Part shown: positions 16,240 through 32,994 of the stretch, piece by piece
Numbering within the stretch: position 1 is the first letter of the stretch
Layout of the letters: each line of letters starts with the position of its first letter
The notes under the pieces: model-generated
What the model saw: the letters and a program-made list of their open reading frames with translations, nothing else
Databases searched by the model: none
What the model was told of the DNA's origin: nothing
Position numbers and translations under genes: made by a program
From: a virus
Reading direction: 5' to 3' (one strand)
DNA: 35,628 nucleotides
IMG/VR virus record: IMGVR_UViG_3300033156_001392
Span: 1-35,628 of that record

Positions 16240-17789
16240 CATTCCTCCCTTCGATACCCCAAGGTCGCCGCGCCGCCGCTGTCCCTGCGCAACTGGGCAT
16301 CTACCCGCGACCATAGCTCATGATGATGAAGCCGATTGGCCTCGCCGGGCGTCATGATGCCTGCGTTGATCTTACCGGAAAACTCGGCGATCAGCGCCCT
16401 CTCAATGGTGTTCACCAGGTGAGCAAATCGCCCAGGATCGATGTTGCCCTGTGGCCTCATGACGTAGCGGTAGCGAGTGCCCTGCTGCTCGCCCACGGCA
16501 CGCAACTCCCGCAGGCCCTCCTGAAGCAACAACTTCACATCGTCTAGCGAGAAGCTGTTGCCGCTGGGATGATTGTGGGTCACATAGGCCCCTCGTAGCT
16601 TGGCCATTTCCGCATCGCTGAAGCGCACGTAATCCCGGGCCCCCGTCTTGGCGAAAACTACCTTACCGTCCTCATCGACCACCACCGCACGTTCAGTGGT
16701 TCGCGTTACAATACGAGCCTCCTCTCTGCTAAGCGCCGCATCACGCGCCGCTACAGGATCGATCACCACAACGGACTCCGGCTCTACGCCGCGACGCAAC
16801 TTACTGAGCGGCGTTACCCGCGGGCTGTCCCCCCACACATCGGAATGCACCGTGGAACACAACGCGCCCAAAGCGAAATCGCCCCGTTTCCACGACTCGT
16901 AATACTCCTCGCCCATCATACGCCGCTGAATACTCTCGGGCTGACGCAGGAACCACTCACGACCCGTTTCCCACTTCACATCGGGAAGCCCTTGGATGCA
17001 AGGAATGGCAGTGCATCTCCCCCGCGGATGATCGCTGAGCTCTTTGTCCAACGAAAAGACCTCGCCATCGGAGACCAAACAGGCCATACAGGTCCGCGAG
17101 TCCCTGGCGGACAGCCTCTTGTATTGCGTTACCACGCCACTGGCTCGGTACTGTTCTACGATTGCATGCCGATAGACCCGCATCTGTTCGGTGCGAGCGA
17201 TGGTGATAGCCTTGTCCAACCCAGCGGCCAGTCCGTCCTTCATGGCCCGAGCCGTCTTGTTGGGATTCCAGCCGAGCGCCGTGCCGCGCACCAGGGCGTT
17301 CACCAAGCCGTCCACCGACGTCGGAGTCAGCGCCCGATCCTTGAGTACAGCGAAAAGGGGCGAGCCGTCACCGGCCAACCCCACCATGCCCTCGACGACC
17401 TCGGCGGGCAGCCGGTAGAAAGTGCCCGTCACCTCGGGCGCGGAGGACTGCAGGGCCTCGTAAGCGCTCTGTATGCCCATAGCACCGGCCTCCGCCTGCC
17501 AACGCACGATAGACGGTTCGGCATACTCGTTCTCAAAGCGCCGTACCTGTTGCTGAATCTGTGCCTTGAGCGCCTTGTAGCGCTCCATTCGATAGAGTGC
17601 GCCATGGGAGATGGCCAGCCCCTCTCGTCGGCGCTCCTCGAACTCCCTGGCCAGCGCGGATATCTGGGCGTCCAGGGCCAACTCCACCTGCAACCACCGC
17701 TCGGCCATCTCCCGCATCTGATCGAGCTCGCGAGCCACCAGGTGGCGCTTCCACTCCTGCAGGACCTGGACAACGAGGGGATCCGCCAC
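16236..17789 (-). CDS. MuF-type minor head protein with C-terminal JAB/MPN-like domain
   Basis: 517 residues, longer than a plain MuF/SPP1 gp7-like protein. Residues ~1-285 are the head-morphogenesis part: a helical N-terminus, NKTARAMKDGLAAGLDKAITIARTEQMRVYRHA, then DSRTCMACLVSDGEVF and HPRGRCTAIPC, the Cys/His signature of MuF. Residues ~320-460 form an extra domain: ERAVVVDEDGKVVFAKTG, then AYVTHNHPSGNSFSLDDVKLL (~400-420). The HxHP...S.xD pattern resembles JAB/MPN (JAMM) metalloproteases and RadC. MuF proteins with C-terminal effector domains are a known class of phage-borne polymorphic toxins delivered with DNA. Enzyme activity here is inferred from the motif. GTG start after the 74-residue gene. 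Confidence 0.85.
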   Translation of the reverse strand: MADPLVVQVLQEWKRHLVARELDQMREMAERWLQVELALDAQISALAREFEERRREGLAISHGALYRMERYKALKAQIQQQVRRFENEYAEPSIVRWQAEAGAMGIQSAYEALQSSAPEVTGTFYRLPAEVVEGMVGLAGDGSPLFAVLKDRALTPTSVDGLVNALVRGTALGWNPNKTARAMKDGLAAGLDKAITIARTEQMRVYRHAIVEQYRASGVVTQYKRLSARDSRTCMACLVSDGEVFSLDKELSDHPRGRCTAIPCIQGLPDVKWETGREWFLRQPESIQRRMMGEEYYESWKRGDFALGALCSTVHSDVWGDSPRVTPLSKLRRGVEPESVVVIDPVAARDAALSREEARIVTRTTERAVVVDEDGKVVFAKTGARDYVRFSDAEMAKLRGAYVTHNHPSGNSFSLDDVKLLLQEGLRELRAVGEQQGTRYRYVMRPQGNIDPGRFAHLVNTIERALIAEFSGKINAGIMTPGEANRLHHHELWSRVDAQLRRDSGGAATLGYRREEW

Positions 17790-18015: not shown

Positions 18016-19367
18016 GTAACGTCCTCCCCCTGCTCCAACCGACGGCGGGCCTCTTCCAAGGCCAACCGTCCCACCGTGGAGCGCTGCATCTCCTCGGCCT
18101 GACGGTCAACTTCCATTTGATCGATCTCATCCTGCGCCCAACCCTCGCGCCGCAAGATGGTGTGAAGCGGTATGTTGGCTCGCACCGCTGCCTCGCGTAC
18201 CTGAGCCTGGGTCAGAGGTTGTACCGTCTCCACCGGCGCCCAGATGGGCAGAATCGCCGACGTGGGCACCTCCATGCCTTGCAGCTTCAATATGAATCGC
18301 CCCAGGTTCTGCCAGGTGATGGAAAACCGCTCTTGATACTGACGCGCCTTGTGTACCAGGGGCGCTTCCATCGCCAGCAGGGCCTCGCCTGAAATGTTGG
18401 CCCCCTGCCCGTAGAAGTAATGCTTGGGCGTTCGCGTGATAATGGCGATGGAGGAGGCCAGCTTGTCGATGGCGTTGAGATAGTTTCCCAGATCGGCGGC
18501 CTCGAACTGGCCGGCAGAGGTCGGCTGATCCCCCGCCATGCCGGCGGCCAGGTCCCAGATTTCGCTCGGCGCGTTTTTGAGTTTGGAGGCCCCCTCCGCC
18601 GCCGAGATCACGTAGCGCTGGGGAAAGGCACCGAACTCCGCGGCGACCATCATGTCGGCCAGCAGTTTGTTCACGGCATCCTGCAGGTGCACCACGTTGG
18701 TAAGCTCAGACGTGCGCGCCCGACGGTGCCGGCGAAGGTGAAAGACGGGCACCTCTTTGTAGGGGTTCTCCTCCACCACCTGCAGGTCCAGGGCATTGGC
18801 GCTGGTTAGGTTCTCCCCTTTGCCGCGGCTGACGTAATGCTCTATATACTCCGGATAGTAGAGATCGACATACCGCCGCCCATCCTCGCCCACCCACCAC
18901 TTGGCCGCAAAGCGCTTAGTCTTCGGACGCTCGGAGTCGTACACCAGGTGGCATAGCCGCGGATCGTTCCAGTAGACGGCGATTCGCTCCTCATCGTTGA
19001 GATCGGGCCAGGCGATGAGATAAGCCTCGCCGGTCACCAGCGCCGCCTCATGAGCCTCGAAAGCCTCCAGCTCCAGGTGTTGATCGATCCATATGCTATC
19101 CAGCACAGCGTTAGCCTCCTCGGCCAGCGCCTGGTCGTTCTCGATGCTCACGTCCCAACCCTTGAGCGTTAGGCGCTCCTGTACCGAATCTATCACCACG
19201 GCACACCAGTTCTGCTCGAAGTGAGCCTTGATGTCCTCAAAAGCCTCCCGCAGCCGCTCAGTGGAGTAGACCAACGGTTGATTCCCGTCGTAATAGTTGT
19301 ACAGTTTGGTGTACAGGGCCTGTTTGGCGCTGAGAGCGCCAAAGGCCAGCTTTAGATCCTCTGTCAT
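18012..19367 (-). CDS. Portal protein (SPP1 gp6-like)
   Basis: 451 residues. Forms the dodecameric ring through which DNA enters. Typical segments: YYDGNQPLVYSTERL near the N-terminus, NWCAVVIDSVQERL, EAALVTGEAYLIAWPD, WNDPRLCHLVYD, LQDAVNKLLADMMVAAEFGAFPQRYV, and the helix TPKHYFYGQGANISGEALLAMEAPL. These are diagnostic of SPP1/gp6-type portals. ATG overlaps the terminase stop as ATGA. It is followed by MuF as in SPP1-like phages. Confidence 0.93.
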   Translation of the reverse strand: MTEDLKLAFGALSAKQALYTKLYNYYDGNQPLVYSTERLREAFEDIKAHFEQNWCAVVIDSVQERLTLKGWDVSIENDQALAEEANAVLDSIWIDQHLELEAFEAHEAALVTGEAYLIAWPDLNDEERIAVYWNDPRLCHLVYDSERPKTKRFAAKWWVGEDGRRYVDLYYPEYIEHYVSRGKGENLTSANALDLQVVEENPYKEVPVFHLRRHRRARTSELTNVVHLQDAVNKLLADMMVAAEFGAFPQRYVISAAEGASKLKNAPSEIWDLAAGMAGDQPTSAGQFEAADLGNYLNAIDKLASSIAIITRTPKHYFYGQGANISGEALLAMEAPLVHKARQYQERFSITWQNLGRFILKLQGMEVPTSAILPIWAPVETVQPLTQAQVREAAVRANIPLHTILRREGWAQDEIDQMEVDRQAEEMQRSTVGRLALEEARRRLEQGEDVT

Positions 19368-20668
19368 CCTCTATGACTCCCGTGTGCACGTCTCCCCCGA
19401 CGCTGTGACAGGGCGTTGAAGGCGCCGGCAGAGGCATCCATGATGTCATTGTGAGGAGCGGTCGGCTGGCTGTGCATGTGGTTGAGCCACATGTCGTTCC
19501 ACGCCGCGCCTAGCAGCTTCACGTTGCCGGCCTCCGATTGCGCGGCCAGGGCCTTGGCCCGGGCGAGCTTGTCCCCCTGCGAGGGCACGCCCCGCGCGTC
19601 CAAGCCGGCCAACAACCGCGTCAACCGCACGGCCTCGCGGCGACCGGCGCTGCCCGGTTCCACCTCCCAGCGCACCAAGAAGCGTGCTCCCCCCGCCGCC
19701 GCGGATTGCGCGCCTTGCCGGCTCAGGTTAACAAAGGCACGCTCTACGTCGGCAGGACCCATCTGCTCGGCAAAGACGTCCATCACGTACCAGGTACCCT
19801 TCACCTCGCGCATCCGCACCGCTGCGGTGTAATCGGGATCATCTTTGGCGATCTCCTTGCGCGTGGAGGCGAAATCCCAAAACAGACACTCCACACCGCC
19901 TCGCGGGACGGCTTCCACTATCTGAAACCAGCCGCGATTGAACACCTTGCCGGCCTCGGGACGGACATGCCAGTTACCGCCCAGGAGACGCTCCCGATCC
20001 ACATAAGGCAGAGCCAACAGATTCGCCCGATACTCCGGATTCGCCTTCAAAAGGGCCGGATTGTCATCCAGTCTCGCCGGAATGAAGGTGAAGCTCTTGG
20101 CGGCGATCCCCGAATCGCCCGACGCCTCTTCCGGCGTATCCCCCCAACGCAACTCCTCGCCCACGCGCACGAAGTAGCGCACCACGCCGGCCCGCTCGGG
20201 GATCGGGTAACCGTCCTCGCCAATCCACCAATCCACCATCTTGGCCACCCAGGAATCGGCGTCGGGATTGGTCGTGGCCCTCACATAAGGTCGTACACCG
20301 CAGGTCGAGCGGTTCCGCGATAGCATGTAGAAGAACTGTGTCTCGCTCAGGTGGGTAAGCTCGTCGAAACCCAAGAGGGGAATCTGTGCGCCCTGCCATT
20401 CGTACTTGTCCTTCTCGTACTGCAAGTGCCCAAACCGCACCCGCGCACCGCTAGGAAAAGTCCATTCCAGGGTGGTCAGCTTCGGCTCAGCTCCCAACAG
20501 CGGATAGATGCGCGACGACTGATCCCATAAGCCGCCCTGGTTGGTGATCTGCGGCGACGTGCGCCGAAAGATCACCGCACCGAAATCCGGATTGTGAATG
20601 TGCCGCAAAGGCTCCATGAGCAGACCCCAGGTCTTGCCCCCGCCAGCGGCTCCGCCGTAGATCACCAT
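19364..20668 (-). CDS. Terminase large subunit (main frame)
   Basis: 434 residues. ATPase: Walker A GGAAGGGKT at residues 5-13 and Walker B LLGFDE at ~98-103. C-terminal RNase H-type nuclease: WDFASTRKE near residue 262 with the first catalytic Asp and HNDIMDASAGAF near 411-422 with another. It packages DNA into the prohead. The frame starts only four residues before Walker A. The usual ~25-residue N-terminus with the adenine-binding Q motif is present just upstream in another frame (20670-20741), separated by one extra base and a TGA. As it stands, either the ribosome shifts frame, or a truncated protein is made from ATG 20668, or the lesion is a sequencing error. Confidence 0.9.
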   Translation of the reverse strand: MVIYGGAAGGGKTWGLLMEPLRHIHNPDFGAVIFRRTSPQITNQGGLWDQSSRIYPLLGAEPKLTTLEWTFPSGARVRFGHLQYEKDKYEWQGAQIPLLGFDELTHLSETQFFYMLSRNRSTCGVRPYVRATTNPDADSWVAKMVDWWIGEDGYPIPERAGVVRYFVRVGEELRWGDTPEEASGDSGIAAKSFTFIPARLDDNPALLKANPEYRANLLALPYVDRERLLGGNWHVRPEAGKVFNRGWFQIVEAVPRGGVECLFWDFASTRKEIAKDDPDYTAAVRMREVKGTWYVMDVFAEQMGPADVERAFVNLSRQGAQSAAAGGARFLVRWEVEPGSAGRREAVRLTRLLAGLDARGVPSQGDKLARAKALAAQSEAGNVKLLGAAWNDMWLNHMHSQPTAPHNDIMDASAGAFNALSQRRGRRAHGSHRG

Positions 20669-21609: not shown

Positions 21610-21804
21610 TCATTCTCGGGCCACGTAAGTGGCCAGATCGCGCAACCAAGTTGCCAGTTCACTTCGTAGACTGCCGATCCGTTCTGGTGGCATGTCATAG
21701 CAGCGCTCGCATTCGTAGAGCAGGTGGTAACCGGCAGCGCGAAGACGGCGGACCAGCTCACGACGTTCGTCAGGAACAGGGCGCGGGTAGATGTGCTGAG
21801 TCAT
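21610..21804 (-). CDS. Small unknown phage protein
   Basis: 64 residues. Starts MTQHIYPRPVPDERRELVRRLRAAG, then YECERCYDMPPERIG with two Cys, then a helical end. The ATG overlaps the resolvase stop as ATGA. No family recognised. It is part of the coupled chain leading to the HTH gene. Confidence 0.62.
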   Translation of the reverse strand: MTQHIYPRPVPDERRELVRRLRAAGYHLLYECERCYDMPPERIGSLRSELATWLRDLATYVARE

Positions 21805-22127
21805 GTTGGCTTGACATCCTCCTCTTGCGGATCGCCGAACCAATCTAGGAAGTCGGCCAGCCGGCACAACACAATGTCGTTGTCGTGGCGTCGCCCTTTT
21901 TGGTGCAGTACCACCAGGGGGCACTTACCGGCGCTGGCATTGCGAACGGCCTGGTCGATGGCCTTGGTAAGCCAGGCGGGAAATCGGGAGCGGGTTTTGA
22001 TCTCTACGGAGAAGGCTCCGGTCTCCACGTCGGGAGTTCGCAGGCCCAAGGCGTAGTTGGACGTACGCCGGCCCCCGAAGCGCCGTGCGATCGTACGCTC
22101 GCAGGCCTTCCAGGTCTTATCGGGCAT
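21801..22127 (-). CDS. PDDEXK-type Holliday junction resolvase-like nuclease
   Basis: 108 residues. WKACERTIARRFGGRRTSN is the usual start of short phage and archaeal-type resolvase/restriction-fold nucleases. It is followed by TPDVETGAFSVEIKTR, where D..(x)n-E-x-K forms the PDDEXK active site (Asp, Glu, Lys), then PLVVLHQKGRRHDNDIVLC. It likely resolves branched replication or recombination intermediates before packaging. It overlaps the previous gene by 11 bases and the next by four. Placement next to terminase genes supports a debranching role. Confidence 0.75.
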   Translation of the reverse strand: MPDKTWKACERTIARRFGGRRTSNYALGLRTPDVETGAFSVEIKTRSRFPAWLTKAIDQAVRNASAGKCPLVVLHQKGRRHDNDIVLCRLADFLDWFGDPQEEDVKPT

Positions 22128-22359
22128 GAACGGTATCCTCCTTCGGCACGATCACGCGTAGGTCTGTCGCAGGGCAGGTCCACTCGCTCCCCAGGGCCAA
22201 GCTGGTGCCCCTCGACTGCCTCGCCAACCTGACGGCGTAGTACACTGTGTCGTCAAAGGGGCTGACAAAGGAGTGCTGATAATCCAGCACCAGCCGGAGT
22301 ATCGGATGGTAAAGCTGCCGACCGGCCAGGCGCGGATCCACGAAAGTGAGCGGGTCCAT
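22117..22359 (-). CDS. Small unknown phage protein
   Basis: 80 residues. VDPRLAGRQLYHPILRLVLDYQHSF, then FDDTVYYAVRLARQ and a C-terminal TCPATDLRVIV. No recognised domain. I start it at ATG 22359, which overlaps the upstream stop as TGATG with GGAG ahead. Part of the coupled block before the resolvase. Confidence 0.62.
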   Translation of the reverse strand: MDPLTFVDPRLAGRQLYHPILRLVLDYQHSFVSPFDDTVYYAVRLARQSRGTSLALGSEWTCPATDLRVIVPKEDTVHAR

Positions 22360-22721
22360 CAAGGGATCTCCTTGGAACCGTGTTGACGACAGGCCTCACG
22401 CGTCTCCAGGTAGCGGCGTTCGGCAGCCTCGAAGCGCCGGCGAGCGGCGTACCACTCCTGACAGCGCAGACGATCGTCGGGATCACTGCGCGCCTGGGTA
22501 AGTCGCCGCCGGAGCTGGGCCAGGTGCTTGACTGCGCGGCGATCATTGGGGTGTTCTTTGACATAGATCTCGCCGGCGGCGATACGGGCCTCCAGTTGCA
22601 CGGCCCGAGGGAGTGCCCCATCCTGGCCGGCGTCGATGGGTCCCCAGGTGGCTTGCCAGGCCTGGTAGGCCTCCTCCAACTCAGCCCTGGCTTGAGCCAC
22701 CGGTTCATGTGTGCGGTCCAT
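22359..22721 (-). CDS. Helical unknown protein
   Basis: 120 residues, almost entirely helical and rich in Arg, Glu, Ala and Gln, with heptad-like stretches (VAQARAELEEAYQAWQATW and WYAARRRFEAAERRYLETRE). ATG with GGAGG seven bases ahead. First gene after the iteron region and so possibly the first of a separate transcript. No family recognised. Confidence 0.68.
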   Translation of the reverse strand: MDRTHEPVAQARAELEEAYQAWQATWGPIDAGQDGALPRAVQLEARIAAGEIYVKEHPNDRRAVKHLAQLRRRLTQARSDPDDRLRCQEWYAARRRFEAAERRYLETREACRQHGSKEIP

Positions 22722-23232
22722 TGACGTTCCTCCTGAGGCGATGGCTTGTTACACCTCTTGGAGAAAGTCCTCCCGACGGGAAGTTCATGCCCCATAGTTC
22801 CTCAGGCAGGTGTAACAACTGTAACAATCTTAGACTAGGGTCCAACTTGGTTACACTTGTTACACTTGTTACACCTGTTTAGAAAAGTCCCTATATAGAA
22901 AAATTTTCCTCGGGACTTTTTTAAAATGGTGTAACGAAGTGTAACAGTGTAACAACTTAGACTGGGGTCCAACTTTGTTACACTTGTTACACCTATCTGG
23001 GAAACTCCGGCGCGGGAACTCTGCGCTAGAACTTTCTCAAACTGGTGTAACAAGTGTAACAGGCCTCCCTCACCGTCCGATTGGAGCGACTCCGTTACAC
23101 TTGTTACACTTCTCCGGCAAACTTCTGCCGGAGCATGCCGCGGCGTTAGAGTTTCCAAGACAGGTGTAACAAGTGTAACAGGCGATGTGTTTGTGTCCTC
23201 ACGTTCGTCTCGTGTCTCTCCAAAGTGATGCA
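22722..23232. repeat. Iteron array with four dyad modules: probable replication origin
   Basis: A gene-free stretch downstream of the primase-helicase. Copies of the 9-bp unit TTGTTACAC and its complement GTGTAACAA form four modules. Each has left-facing copies, a 55-70-base spacer, then right-facing copies: 22746 with 22810-22827; 22847-22874 (three copies) with 22929-22955 (three); 22975-22992 (two) with 23045-23062 (two); 23092-23109 (two) with 23164-23181 (two). Inside each module the symmetry continues as GAAA-type words facing TTTC-type words. Module 2 has a 9-bp inner stem (AAAAGTCCC) around an AT-rich core that could unwind; module 4 has an 8-bp inner stem (CTCCGGCA). The linker CTTAGACT(A/G)GGGTCC recurs at 22829 and 22956. 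Such iterons beside a primase-helicase are what an origin looks like. Confidence 0.8.
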
Positions 23233-25767
23233 CTAGAAGGGTACCTCCTTGTCTTTGTCGTAAGGTGAATCGGCAGTCGAATCATCTGCCTGGCTTTCCA
23301 GGGGAAGCAGTTCATCATCCGCCATACCCTGCAAGCCGATGCCCACCCAGCAACGCTTGGGGTTGCCGTTGATGCGGATGACCTGTGACGGTTTGCAGCC
23401 GCGCTCTCTGAGTCGATCGGTAAACTCCCGCCCTCGCAGAGCGCGTTCGCCGCGATCGCGTGCCCAACACTCGTAAGCGTTGCGCAGGTCCCGCGAGGGC
23501 ACATAGGCCACGGGGCTCAACACACAGCATTCCTCGATGAAGGGTCCCAGGGGATCCTGCTGTGCGCGGTAGTTCTCGGTGGCCTCCTCGACGCTGGTGG
23601 GCACGTTCAACCCGTGGGCCTGCCAGTCGAGACAGCCGCGCACAGCCCAGGCCAGAATCGCCGCGCCGGAACGCTTCGGATCGCGCAGAGTCTGCTTCAC
23701 CGCTGGATCGCGTTTGTCGACCGGCACCACACATTCGAAGGGCACCCGTAGGATTCGGCGCCACATGGCGTCATCCACGTCGCTGAGGCGGGGGGCGTGG
23801 TTGGCGCAGAGCCACAAGGTGAACTGGGGCACGAACTCGAAGGCCTCCTTGTACATGAAGCGGGCGGTAACGGTGTCCCCCCCGGTGATGGTCTTGACCA
23901 GACCCTCGGCCAGCCGTTTGCCCTCGTCGACTTCGATGCTGGCCACCAAACGAGCGCCGGCCAGACGCGCGATATCATTTCGGGGTGAACCGGTGACCAT
24001 GGTGCGTTTGATGAAGGTCTCAAAGTCAGCGGTCAAGGCGTAATCTCCCAAAGTGGCCTTGATGGCCTCGACGAAGGTGGATTTGCCCGCTGCGGTGGGG
24101 CCGTGTATGAAGAAGAGCTTCTCCTCGCTGGGTGCGCCTACCAGGGAATAGCCCACGGCGCGGGCCAGGAAGGCTTGCAGCTCCTCATCACCGCCGGTGA
24201 CATCGTCAAGGAAGTGTTCCCACAGATCGGAGTGTGCTTCGAGGTCGTAGTGCACGGGGGTTACCTTGGTGATCAGATCTTCACGGCAGTGGGGCTTGAG
24301 TTGACCGTTGCGCAGGTCGAGGGTTCCGTTCTGGCAGTTGAGCAGCCAGGGATCGGCGTCCAGGTCTGCGGGGAGGACGGGCACGCCGGGTTCGCTCTCG
24401 GCCAGGCTGATCATGGCCTTGAGGCGTGCCTCGCTCTCGCTGGTACGAGCCCATTTGGCCAGGGCCTTGCGCCGCTCGTCGTCGGGTTCGTCGCTGGCTT
24501 CGCGATAGATCTGCCGCACCGTGTTTTTGGCTCGTCGGTGTACCTCGCCGGTTTGGTCCGTGGCCCAACGGACGCCTGTCCATACGTACCAGGTCTTGGA
24601 GACGTGGCAGTAGCGTAAGTCCTTGCCGTGCTGAGCGATGAGGCGCTGAGCGTTGCCCATATCGGTGAGGTTGTAGCCTTCATTGGGAGGTCTATGGGTG
24701 ATAGCGGCGCCGCCAGAGTCTTCGCGCGCCCAGTGCACAAGACTCCCCAGGCCAAGGCCGTGGTTGGGATCGAAGGTTTCCCACTTGGTCTCGCAGTCTC
24801 CTTCCTGATACTTGGGGCTGCGGCGCGACCACTGATCCCATAGCGAAAGGCCCACGTCGCCGAGTTCGGAGAGGGCCATGCCCACCGCAAGCCAAGCGTT
24901 ATAGTCATCCTGGCGCCAGGGAGCCAGGCGCTCCAGATTACGGGCTGCCTGGGCTATACTGTCGGCATAGGCGTACTCGCCGTGGTTCGTGGCCGGCGTG
25001 TCCAACTTGGTTGCATGGTGGTTCGGCATGTCGTCGGGGACCCATTCGTCGAGGATGGCGGCAACCTCTTCTGCCGTGATAGTCTGAGCGTTCTCCAAGA
25101 GGGCCACTTGATCGGCGTAGGGCTTGAACTCCTCGTCGACGAAGAGACAGCGGTTGCCGGTCTTACGATGTCGCCCCAAGGGGACTTTGACCAGGTTTCC
25201 GTAGGGATCGCTGGCGTCGAGTTGATCCTGTTTGGGAAAGACCTCGACGTGGCAGTTAGCCGGCTGCCCCTCCTCATCGAGGGTACTGTCGACGATCCAG
25301 CGCCCCAGACGGCGGAGGTCTCTGGCGGGACAACCGGCGGGACAGAAGGTCCAGATGTGAAAGCCCTTGTTACCCGTGTATTCGACGTAGGTCGGCAGTC
25401 CGATCTGGCGAGTGCGGGCGACGAGTAGGTTGGTGAGATGCTTGACGTTGGTGCGAGCGTGCTCTTCGTCGACGTCGGCGTCCACGTCCAGGCAGAGCCA
25501 GCCGGCGGTGGCGTCGTCACGCAGCTGATAGGCGCCCAGAGTGATACGTCCTCGCAAGTGGGCGTCCAGCCGTTCGTCGGTGAGGGCGGTGGGCGACTTG
25601 TGGGCGCAGTCCCGGCACCGGAAGCCCTGTTCTTTGCATTGGGCGGTGAAGCGATTGTCGCAGGCCGGGGAGTAACCGGTGCGACCGTCGCGGGTGCGCC
25701 ATTGTTCGGCGTGGCGTGAGGATTGATAGAAGAACAGGCGGCGCAGGAGGGCGTTGGGATCACTCAT
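23233..25767 (-). CDS. AEP (TOTE-type) primase fused to D5/SF3 helicase
   Basis: 844 residues. Residues ~15-215 are an archaeo-eukaryotic-type primase of the TOTE kind: HAEQW..RDGRTGYSPAC, a Cys set (36, 44, 51, 54) for zinc, PTALTDERLDAHL, the metal-binding DVDAD at 94-98, NKGFHIW at ~133-139, and VEVFPKQDQL at ~174 followed by GNLVKVPLG. Residues ~400-530 are a D5_N-type domain and ~545-760 an SF3 helicase with Walker A GPTAAGKS at 556-563 and LWLCANHAPRLSDVDDAMWRR. It ends DKEVPF, similar to the tail of the SSB-like protein. It would open and prime the adjacent iteron origin; some AEPs also polymerise DNA, which matters since no polymerase is seen. Start ATG 25767 overlaps the upstream stop as ATGA. 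Confidence 0.93.
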   Translation of the reverse strand: MSDPNALLRRLFFYQSSRHAEQWRTRDGRTGYSPACDNRFTAQCKEQGFRCRDCAHKSPTALTDERLDAHLRGRITLGAYQLRDDATAGWLCLDVDADVDEEHARTNVKHLTNLLVARTRQIGLPTYVEYTGNKGFHIWTFCPAGCPARDLRRLGRWIVDSTLDEEGQPANCHVEVFPKQDQLDASDPYGNLVKVPLGRHRKTGNRCLFVDEEFKPYADQVALLENAQTITAEEVAAILDEWVPDDMPNHHATKLDTPATNHGEYAYADSIAQAARNLERLAPWRQDDYNAWLAVGMALSELGDVGLSLWDQWSRRSPKYQEGDCETKWETFDPNHGLGLGSLVHWAREDSGGAAITHRPPNEGYNLTDMGNAQRLIAQHGKDLRYCHVSKTWYVWTGVRWATDQTGEVHRRAKNTVRQIYREASDEPDDERRKALAKWARTSESEARLKAMISLAESEPGVPVLPADLDADPWLLNCQNGTLDLRNGQLKPHCREDLITKVTPVHYDLEAHSDLWEHFLDDVTGGDEELQAFLARAVGYSLVGAPSEEKLFFIHGPTAAGKSTFVEAIKATLGDYALTADFETFIKRTMVTGSPRNDIARLAGARLVASIEVDEGKRLAEGLVKTITGGDTVTARFMYKEAFEFVPQFTLWLCANHAPRLSDVDDAMWRRILRVPFECVVPVDKRDPAVKQTLRDPKRSGAAILAWAVRGCLDWQAHGLNVPTSVEEATENYRAQQDPLGPFIEECCVLSPVAYVPSRDLRNAYECWARDRGERALRGREFTDRLRERGCKPSQVIRINGNPKRCWVGIGLQGMADDELLPLESQADDSTADSPYDKDKEVPF

Positions 25768-32016: not shown

Positions 32017-32994
32017 CTAGAAGGGGATGTCCTCCTCCTTCACGTAGGCCGGATCGTCGTCGGTGTCTTCTTCATCGCTTTGGGCATCGTCGCCGCCGAT
32101 GACTCGCTGGCCGTCGAGCTGCTCGGAATCCCAGGTGTGTGCCCACTGCTCGGCTTCCTCGTACCAAGTGCTGAACAGATCGAGCCTCTCCTTACCTACA
32201 AAGAGCTCGCCCAACTCGTTCAGCGTCATCTTGTCGTGGAGTCCGAGGGCACAGGGCAGCGTCACTGTAGCCTGGGCGCCTTTGTCGCCCACGGTCGTGT
32301 AGATCGGCTGCTCGTCGTCGTCGCGCTGGGGACCCACGGTGAGCCAAAAGGCCCGATACGGCCACAGTGCCTTTTTCCCGCGCTTTCGGTTGGCGGCGTT
32401 GGCTGGCGTGATCACGCTGCGGATGAAGTCGTTCATCACCGAGTCACCCTGGCGGCTGGGGCTGAAAGCACGGGATACCGAGCCGCCCATGGTCAACACG
32501 AAGGGTCCCAAATCCTCCAGGTCACGAAGGGCGACCAGGACCTGCAACCTCCCACTGAGTCCTCCGCCCGCCGGCACGCTGGCTGCTGCGCGGTTGTACT
32601 CGTTCCAGGCGTACAGGGTGATCTTGTTGCCGCTTCGCACCCGCCAGCATCGCCGGCTGCGGATCAGGGCCACAGTGAGATCGCGGACAAAGAAGCCCTC
32701 GGTTGAACCTCCCTGCTCGTGCATGAGTTCGCCGGCCTCCCAGCCGGGGAGTTCGTCCAGGGTGATGCCCTGTTCCGCGTTCATGAACCAGCCGCCCGTG
32801 TAGGGCACTCCGCCGGCCTTTTTCAGCCTGTGGTCGCCGTGGACCCACTGGATGAACGGGTACTGCGGTCCTTCGAGGTCTACGGTCGATTGGTCGACGC
32901 CGTCCACGGCGTCCAACCATTCCTCCTCGGCAGGCTTCGTGGTATGGGCCATGGCCGAGGCGTCTGCCTTACGGTTCTTCGGCAAGTTAGCCAT
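32017..32994 (-). CDS. SSB-like protein with acidic DIPF C-terminal tail
   Basis: 325 residues. A compact N-terminal domain with PYTGGWFMNAEQGITLDELPGW and VALIRSRRCWRV, a middle domain with ALWPYRAFWLTVGPQRD, and a long acidic tail ending KEEDIPF. The tail closely resembles the SSB C-terminal tip (DDDIPF) that binds replication partners. I judge it a phage single-stranded-DNA-binding or replication-scaffold protein, but the core fold is not recognised with certainty. Notably the primase-helicase ends similarly (KEVPF). ATG with AAGGAG nine bases ahead. Confidence 0.7.
   Translation of the reverse strand: MANLPKNRKADASAMAHTTKPAEEEWLDAVDGVDQSTVDLEGPQYPFIQWVHGDHRLKKAGGVPYTGGWFMNAEQGITLDELPGWEAGELMHEQGGSTEGFFVRDLTVALIRSRRCWRVRSGNKITLYAWNEYNRAAASVPAGGGLSGRLQVLVALRDLEDLGPFVLTMGGSVSRAFSPSRQGDSVMNDFIRSVITPANAANRKRGKKALWPYRAFWLTVGPQRDDDEQPIYTTVGDKGAQATVTLPCALGLHDKMTLNELGELFVGKERLDLFSTWYEEAEQWAHTWDSEQLDGQRVIGGDDAQSDEEDTDDDPAYVKEEDIPF

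Follow-up and report, generated by a model that had tools for sequence, protein, structure and literature searches.

Known origins beside initiator genes

Origins in which iterons lie just behind the gene of their own initiator are already known from P4 and the SaPI satellites. Separated from the end of alpha by 46 bp, the annotated P4 crr consists of two 120-bp direct repeats in which type-1 octamers (TGTTCACC) occur in both orientations and in pairs 9 bp apart. PICI origins are found immediately 3' of rep, where two iteron sets flank an AT-rich region (PMC6092414). For SaPI Rep and SCCmec Cch2 alike, it is the C-terminal domain that binds iterons lying a short way behind the protein's own gene (PMC7581432). 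The Cch2 iteron is AAGTG, and Cch2 binding survives deletion of the inverted repeats but is abolished by deletion of the direct repeats (PMC7581432). In pRN1, replication needs a stem-loop of ~100 bp that follows an AEP-SF3-winged-helix gene; an origin of the stem-loop type has also been proposed for Bordetella phage BIP-1 (PMC4234260).

The locus described here belongs to a virus record of 35,628 bases (IMG/VR record IMGVR_UViG_3300033156_001392), the whole of which we refer to as the window. An array of 17 TTGTTACAC-type units (22746..23181, no strand assigned), grouped into four convergent modules, lies 51 bp from the stop codon of the gene for P0001, an 844-aa primase-helicase and the proposed initiator (23233..25767, minus strand). 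With a probability of roughly 0.87, this array would be a phage replication origin of the P4-crr/SaPI type, read by the adjacent primase-helicase. The original prediction had placed an origin beside a TOTE-type primase-helicase at this site, and it is supported by the domains of P0001 (AEP-TOTE, PriCT_2, D5_N and P4-family helicase), by the plan shared with P4 crr and by the 3' position of repeat clusters in loci collected without regard to the motif. The arrangement and position of the array, the recurrence of repeats at 3' gene ends, the fold of the P0001 C-terminus and the covariation between word and C-terminus were all computed here. This kind of origin is already known, its layout is widespread among ordinary phages in our data, and what is new is the row of four tandem dyads and a word common to unrelated primase types. 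We claim no precedence for the rule that iterons lie at the 3' end of the gene, our coverage of the literature being partial.

As in P4 crr, iterons spaced 9 bp apart and facing both ways form modules of ~120 bp directly 3' of a primase-helicase gene of the alpha type, and the modelled C-terminus of P0001 is a winged helix of the same fold as that of alpha. Unlike P4, however, the window uses TTGTTACAC rather than TGTTCACC and has four modules rather than two, and the primase part of P0001 is AEP-TOTE whereas that of alpha is bacterial-type (Toprim). Neither a second iteron site like ori1 nor any other cluster of units was found elsewhere in the 35.6-kb contig, which may be incomplete, and the array is therefore filed under the wider kind only and not as a P4 crr. 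With SaPI/PICI origins it shares the place immediately 3' of the initiator gene and the iteron sets around an AT-rich stretch (3+3 units around core 2); it differs in having four successive dyads instead of two iteron sets and in residing in a tailed phage, whose own large terminase gene sets the record apart from PICI/SaPI satellites. The AAGTG of Cch2 forms part of AAGTGTAAC, which is the window's wider unit GTTACACTT in reverse complement, whereas the Cch2 site is a 23-bp direct-repeat region with three iterons and Cch2 itself is a helicase without a fused primase. The likeness to pRN1 and BIP-1 lies in a dyad directly 3' of an AEP-SF3-winged-helix gene; pRN1, however, is devoid of iterons, and structure rather than a repeated word is taken as its signal.

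Arrangement of the array and its surroundings

The array fills most of a 511-bp gap between the primase-helicase stop codon and the start of the gene for P0003 (22359..22721, minus strand), a 120-aa protein without assigned function whose start lies 25 bp from the first unit. Allowing at most one mismatch, the window contains 20 copies of TTGTTACAC, 16 of them within 22746-23181, compared with a mean of 2.8 and a maximum of 7 in the shuffled window; the 17th unit of the array is two mismatches away. The convergent groups of this unit bounding four modules are confirmed as originally described. Eight units lie on the plus and nine on the minus strand, which separates the array from one-orientation iteron plasmid origins, again as had been foreseen.

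In module 1 (22746..22827), one plus-strand unit (22746-22754) faces two minus-strand units (22810-22827, starting at 22810 and 22819) across a core of 55 bp. Module 2 (22848..22955) has three units on either side of 54 bp (22848-22874, plus, starting at 22848, 22857 and 22866; 22929-22955, minus, starting at 22929, 22939 and 22947). Two units face two in module 3 (22975..23062; 22975-22992, plus, starting at 22975 and 22984; 23045-23062, minus, starting at 23045 and 23054; core 52 bp) and in module 4 (23092..23181; 23092-23109, plus, starting at 23092 and 23101; 23164-23181, minus, starting at 23164 and 23173), where a core of 54 bp contains a perfect inner stem. The copy numbers of one, three, two and two given earlier for the arms are correct for the left arms, but the right arms carry two, three, two and two. 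Units within an arm are spaced by 9 bp, with one spacing of 8 and one of 10 as exceptions, facing arms lie 52-55 bp apart, and the modules recur with a period of 116-120 bp, the left-arm ends being 120, 118 and 117 bp apart. The linker reported to repeat between the first three modules is indeed present in two copies of 19-20 bp (CTTAGACTRGGGTCCAACT), one between modules 1 and 2 (22828..22847, TCTTAGACTAGGGTCCAACT) and a near-copy of it between modules 2 and 3 (22956..22974, CTTAGACTGGGGTCCAACT). In most units one strand reads GTG, a trinucleotide that can serve ORF904 and NrSPol as a priming site (PMC8718748). Two open reading frames of the window (22835-23233, minus, and 22613-22882, plus), with CNKCN and VTLVT runs in their translations, look like frames that probably owe their existence to the repeats.

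Being intergenic and repeated, the array might instead be regulatory, that is, a cluster of operators or terminators for the primase or the late genes. This is most improbable: neither a sigma-70-like promoter nor a terminator-like site was detected in 22300-23600, no Rfam family was found in the window, and, since the P0003 and P0001 genes are both read leftward, the array lies downstream of the primase gene. Early-type genes (a DinG-like helicase and others) are found to its right, and a Holliday-junction-resolvase-like gene (21801..22127, minus strand; a weak match, E 6e-4), the terminase large subunit gene with which the late block starts (19364..20668, minus strand) and further late genes to its left. 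GC3 skew, calculated over same-strand genes, is mostly positive or near zero in the late block and negative in all genes rightward. The change of sign that had been proposed as a check on the origin does exist, but it falls at about 21.2-21.8 kb, ~1.2 kb left of the array and not exactly at it; the composition of early and late genes could have caused it, and the skew is kept as weak support.

Cores, symmetry and folding

The core of module 2 (22875..22928, no strand assigned) is the proposed melting site (DUE), as no other 50 bp of the 35.6-kb window is as AT-rich as the stretch 22878-22927 within it (74% AT compared with a window mean of ~38%). The degenerate inner word pair of the original prediction proved to be an AAASTYC-like word that is present in 8/8 half-sites at a fixed distance inward from the unit; its alignment reaches 20.5 bits over 20 columns, while shuffles average 6.2 and do not exceed 10.2. 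In relatives, neither the inner word nor the core length of 52-55 bp is conserved, and both are therefore treated as local.

Alternatively, the modules could drive initiation by structure, extruding stem-loops or cruciforms in the manner proposed for pRN1, in which case the repeats would matter mainly by pairing. Folded as ssDNA on both strands, module 2 (z -9.4/-10.1), module 3 (z -8.9/-9.5) and module 4 (z -5.6/-6.7) all fold much more stably than shuffles, and the requirement for the pRN1 stem-loop offers a precedent. However, module 1 folds no better than shuffles (z about -1.6); set beside the ~100-nt stem-loop of the pRN1 type, strong folding is confined to modules 2-4. When inner symmetry about the centre was compared with shuffles, module 2 scored higher (p=0.002), module 4 marginally so (p=0.037) and the other two did not. 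Moreover, the same word stands in tandem within arms and recurs across unrelated phages, neither of which pairing alone would need, and Cch2, as noted above, depends on direct and not on inverted repeats. BPP-1, which we take to be the sister of BIP-1, has 2+2 convergent repeats spaced by 9 bp in the region corresponding to the BIP-1 stem-loop; therefore, the stem-loop and the iteron readings may describe one and the same thing. An origin driven by structure is, in our estimate, quite unlikely, and the extrusion of cruciforms that had been suggested is possible though not required.

Repeats behind D5-primase genes

Eighty viral loci were fetched by D5 helicase similarity alone, without reference to the motif. 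The strongest 7-mer cluster was located at the 3' end of the gene in 45 of them, where random placement predicts 8.9, and by this measure the remaining 35 had no 3'-end cluster. Forty-four clusters beat all 20 dinucleotide shuffles; 37 of these lay at the 3' end, every one of them with the word in both orientations, and 67 of the 86 spacings in the motif-blind clusters measured 8-12 bp. The words vary by lineage (GGTTACT, GGTTAAT, TGTTACT, TGACGG, GTTCACT and others), and exact TTGTTACAC occurred in none of the clusters of the 80 loci; this absence, like the 35 loci without a 3'-end cluster, counts against the origin reading. Repeats spaced by 9 bp were found behind the primase genes of phi105, AcaML1, BcepC6B, BPP-1 and Validus. 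The original prediction would have expected the unit itself in phages with the same primase; this needs restating, since close D5 relatives such as phi105, AcaML1 and BPP-1 lack the exact word but possess, in the same position, 9-bp-spaced iterons of their own (the phi105 word being TGTTACT). Given the 3'-end repeats across D5 loci, the array of the window is therefore the TTGTTACAC version of a general feature.

The GTTACAC word in other viruses

At least 119 viral-contig stretches contain the 17-mer TGTTACACTTGTTACAC, compared with 18 for the pattern read backwards. In most of its loci, 5-17 units facing both ways are gathered in 600 bp, at GC contents of 28-63%. Across 34 representative loci, neighbouring GTTACA words were 9 bp apart in 68 cases, by far the commonest spacing. 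Among the 16 lineages with both a GTTACAC cluster and an SF3 gene, the two lay within 223 bp of each other in 15, and the 3' end of the gene faced the cluster in 13; the backward control showed neither a P4-family gene in its records nor an SF3 gene in the loci fetched from them. The primase parts beside these clusters are completely different from one another, comprising AEP-TOTE, Prim-Pol, CHC2/Toprim, Toprim_3, DUF927 without a primase, and the NrS-1 prim-pol, and a mixed alignment was too divergent for scanning. A search for close relatives of P0001 returned four viral loci only, and when the array was compared with plasmids by blastn, no origin relative emerged that was convincing. Since a scan of genome contigs with the 17-mer yielded 61 matches where ~30 were estimated by chance, only loci with real clusters were considered. 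Two further loci may be mentioned. A single 47.8-kb contig (IMGVR_UViG_3300031867_000119; L054 and L085) carries two separate ten-unit clusters, recalling P4 crr plus ori1, and in a Hymenobacter volaticus plasmid (L152, 5008-5026) two tandem TTGTTACAC-type units lie between genes, ~70 bp from a ParA gene.

The 37-kb genome of NrS-1 (AB746912) has 11 GTTACAC sites, every one of which falls within 17062-17377; they occur in both orientations and form a cluster of about 310 bp that separates the genes for the prim-pol and TerS. NrSPol has been shown to start at 5'-TTTGGTTA-3' (PMC8718748), and the only exact copy of this site found in the genome (17198-17205, minus strand) extends across two units; two copies of the priming site have been placed near the genome centre (PMC7102993), against the one exact copy found here. 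NrS-1 is like the window in having GTTACAC sites in both orientations behind its primase gene, and its cluster encloses a known priming site; it is unlike the window in its unit (GGTTACACTT), its irregular spacing without regular modules and its different prim-pol family. The hypothetical gene NRS1_29 (17055-17456; L153) spans the entire cluster and is probably a frame made by the origin repeats.

Lying as it does between the replication and packaging blocks, the array might also be a packaging site (pac/cos), the repeats of which would be bound by the small subunit of the terminase. This reading can appeal to the many TTACAC-cluster contigs in which the small terminase gene follows the cluster at a distance of 0-175 bp, to the F3-group contigs, which are without an SF3 helicase, and to the order primase, cluster, TerS in NrS-1 and BPP-1, which BcepC6B shares with one gene between. 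In the window, however, TerL is several genes away from the array; in the ten motif-blind loci checked, the cluster was followed by a Holliday-junction-resolvase-like gene in four and by a terminase gene in none; at SF3-adjacent clusters such as those of L036, L048, L050, L087 and L090, no TerS could be recognised as the immediate neighbour; P4, with the same plan, is annotated without a terminase gene; and the word covaries with the primase C-terminus, as shown below. We therefore regard a packaging site as an unlikely explanation and favour an origin read by the primase-helicase.

What counts against an origin read by an SF3 initiator is that in many phages with TTACAC clusters (terminase families F0/F1 and F3) the cluster adjoins TerS while the SF3 gene is distant or absent; some of these phages encode a stand-alone AEP-TOTE primase instead. 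In F0/F1 loci (L012, L014, L031, L033 and others), the small terminase gene lies ~160 bp downstream of the clusters, and the SF3-like 571-aa gene, where seen, is 7-9 kb or more away. The stand-alone AEP-TOTE primase (L159:14484-16016 and L323-L371) has ~510 aa and ends in a winged helix; it occurs in phages with PolA and a Dda/UvrD-like helicase, the checked contigs of which yielded no SF3 helicase, and in several of these phages the small terminase gene has a TTACAC cluster next to it. The C-terminus of the stand-alone protein (A4) folds as a winged helix, for which SCCmec Cch is among the tied matches (Z 6.6) and not set apart from them. A near match to the doubled unit was present in 7/33 records with the stand-alone gene and in 0 for the reversed control, the loci fetched around the gene itself stopping short of the cluster.

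The probable reader of the word

P0001 consists of an AEP-TOTE domain (residues 7-237), PriCT_2 (276-347), D5_N (373-524), an SF3 core of the P4 family (474-782) and a Pox_D5 winged helix. It matches TIGR01613 with E 3e-86, passing the cut-off, and AEP-TOTE (PF22548) with E 6e-47, the Pox_D5 match likewise being above its cut-off. "TOTE" is used here as the name of the primase domain only, and none of the ten window proteins scanned was a TOTE conflict effector.

Based on covariation and on a modelled fold, we propose that the winged helix at the C-terminus of P0001 (about residues 736-815; 23323..23562, minus strand) would bind the iterons. Among 27 dereplicated primases, word distance was related to C-terminal identity once helicase-core identity had been removed (r=-0.45, permutation p=0.001), whereas it was not related to core identity after removal of the C-terminus (r=-0.03, p=0.36). 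The C-terminus of P0001 was modelled as a winged helix (pLDDT 83.7), the nearest structures being RFX5 (Z 10.2) and RFX1 (Z 10.1); the NrS-1 tail scored Z 5.6, and the P4 origin-binding domain 1ka8 was matched at Z 7.5 over 74 residues with an rmsd of 3.0. The eukaryotic RFX half-site is GTTRCC, which the GTTAC core of the window's unit resembles; this may point to a very ancient way of recognising DNA. Rfx1 and the P4 domain have both been noted as winged helix family members with a likeness to the C962R tail (PMC10516667).

The original prediction had named two candidate binders, the primase-helicase and the HTH-zinc protein ahead of it, and it is the former that these results favour. The latter, P0002 (25764..26282, minus strand), an HTH and zinc-ribbon-like protein, could bind the same origin as an accessory initiator, given its weak HTH match and its gene directly ahead of the primase gene. 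Yet P0002 has no relatives in the other fetched loci, although the repeats recur there, and the covariation of the word points to the primase C-terminus. P0002 is thus an unsupported candidate, to which we give very little credence.

Proposed initiation and wider meaning

With the primase-helicase as reader, we infer the following course of events. The C-terminal winged helix of P0001 would bind the 9-bp units as duplex DNA, and SF3 helicase rings would assemble on both arms, pointing at each other because the units of an arm are 9 bp apart and the arms are opposed across 52-55 bp. Driven by ATP, the rings could then melt the DNA between them, which would be easiest in the AT-rich core of module 2, the AEP domain would prime on the opened strands, and replication might proceed bidirectionally with the host polymerase.

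A broader claim is put forward tentatively, and we hold it to be somewhat more doubtful than probable: TTGTTACAC, with its core GTTACAC, may be an origin word common to initiators whose primase parts are unrelated (AEP-TOTE, Prim-Pol, DnaG-like, DUF927/Cch-type and the NrS-1 prim-pol) in several bacterial phyla and at GC contents of 28-63%, the word being set by an RFX-type C-terminal winged helix. If it is true, origins might be exchangeable between phages, and, since the word would be set by this domain, origin words could be predicted from it. The origins of most phages are unknown; should the rule hold that D5/SF3 initiator genes are closely followed by convergent iterons ~9 bp apart, whose word depends on the C-terminal winged helix, many could be read from sequence and tested. 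The same rule would link three types of origin that have been described separately, namely P4 crr, the SaPI/PICI iterons and the pRN1/BIP-1 stem-loops.

A further observation concerns the extreme C-termini. P0001 ends in KDKEVPF, a 325-aa protein of the window (32017-32994) in KEEDIPF, and P0004 of a related phage in NDIPF; these tails resemble the acidic tail by which single-strand binding protein recruits host replication enzymes.
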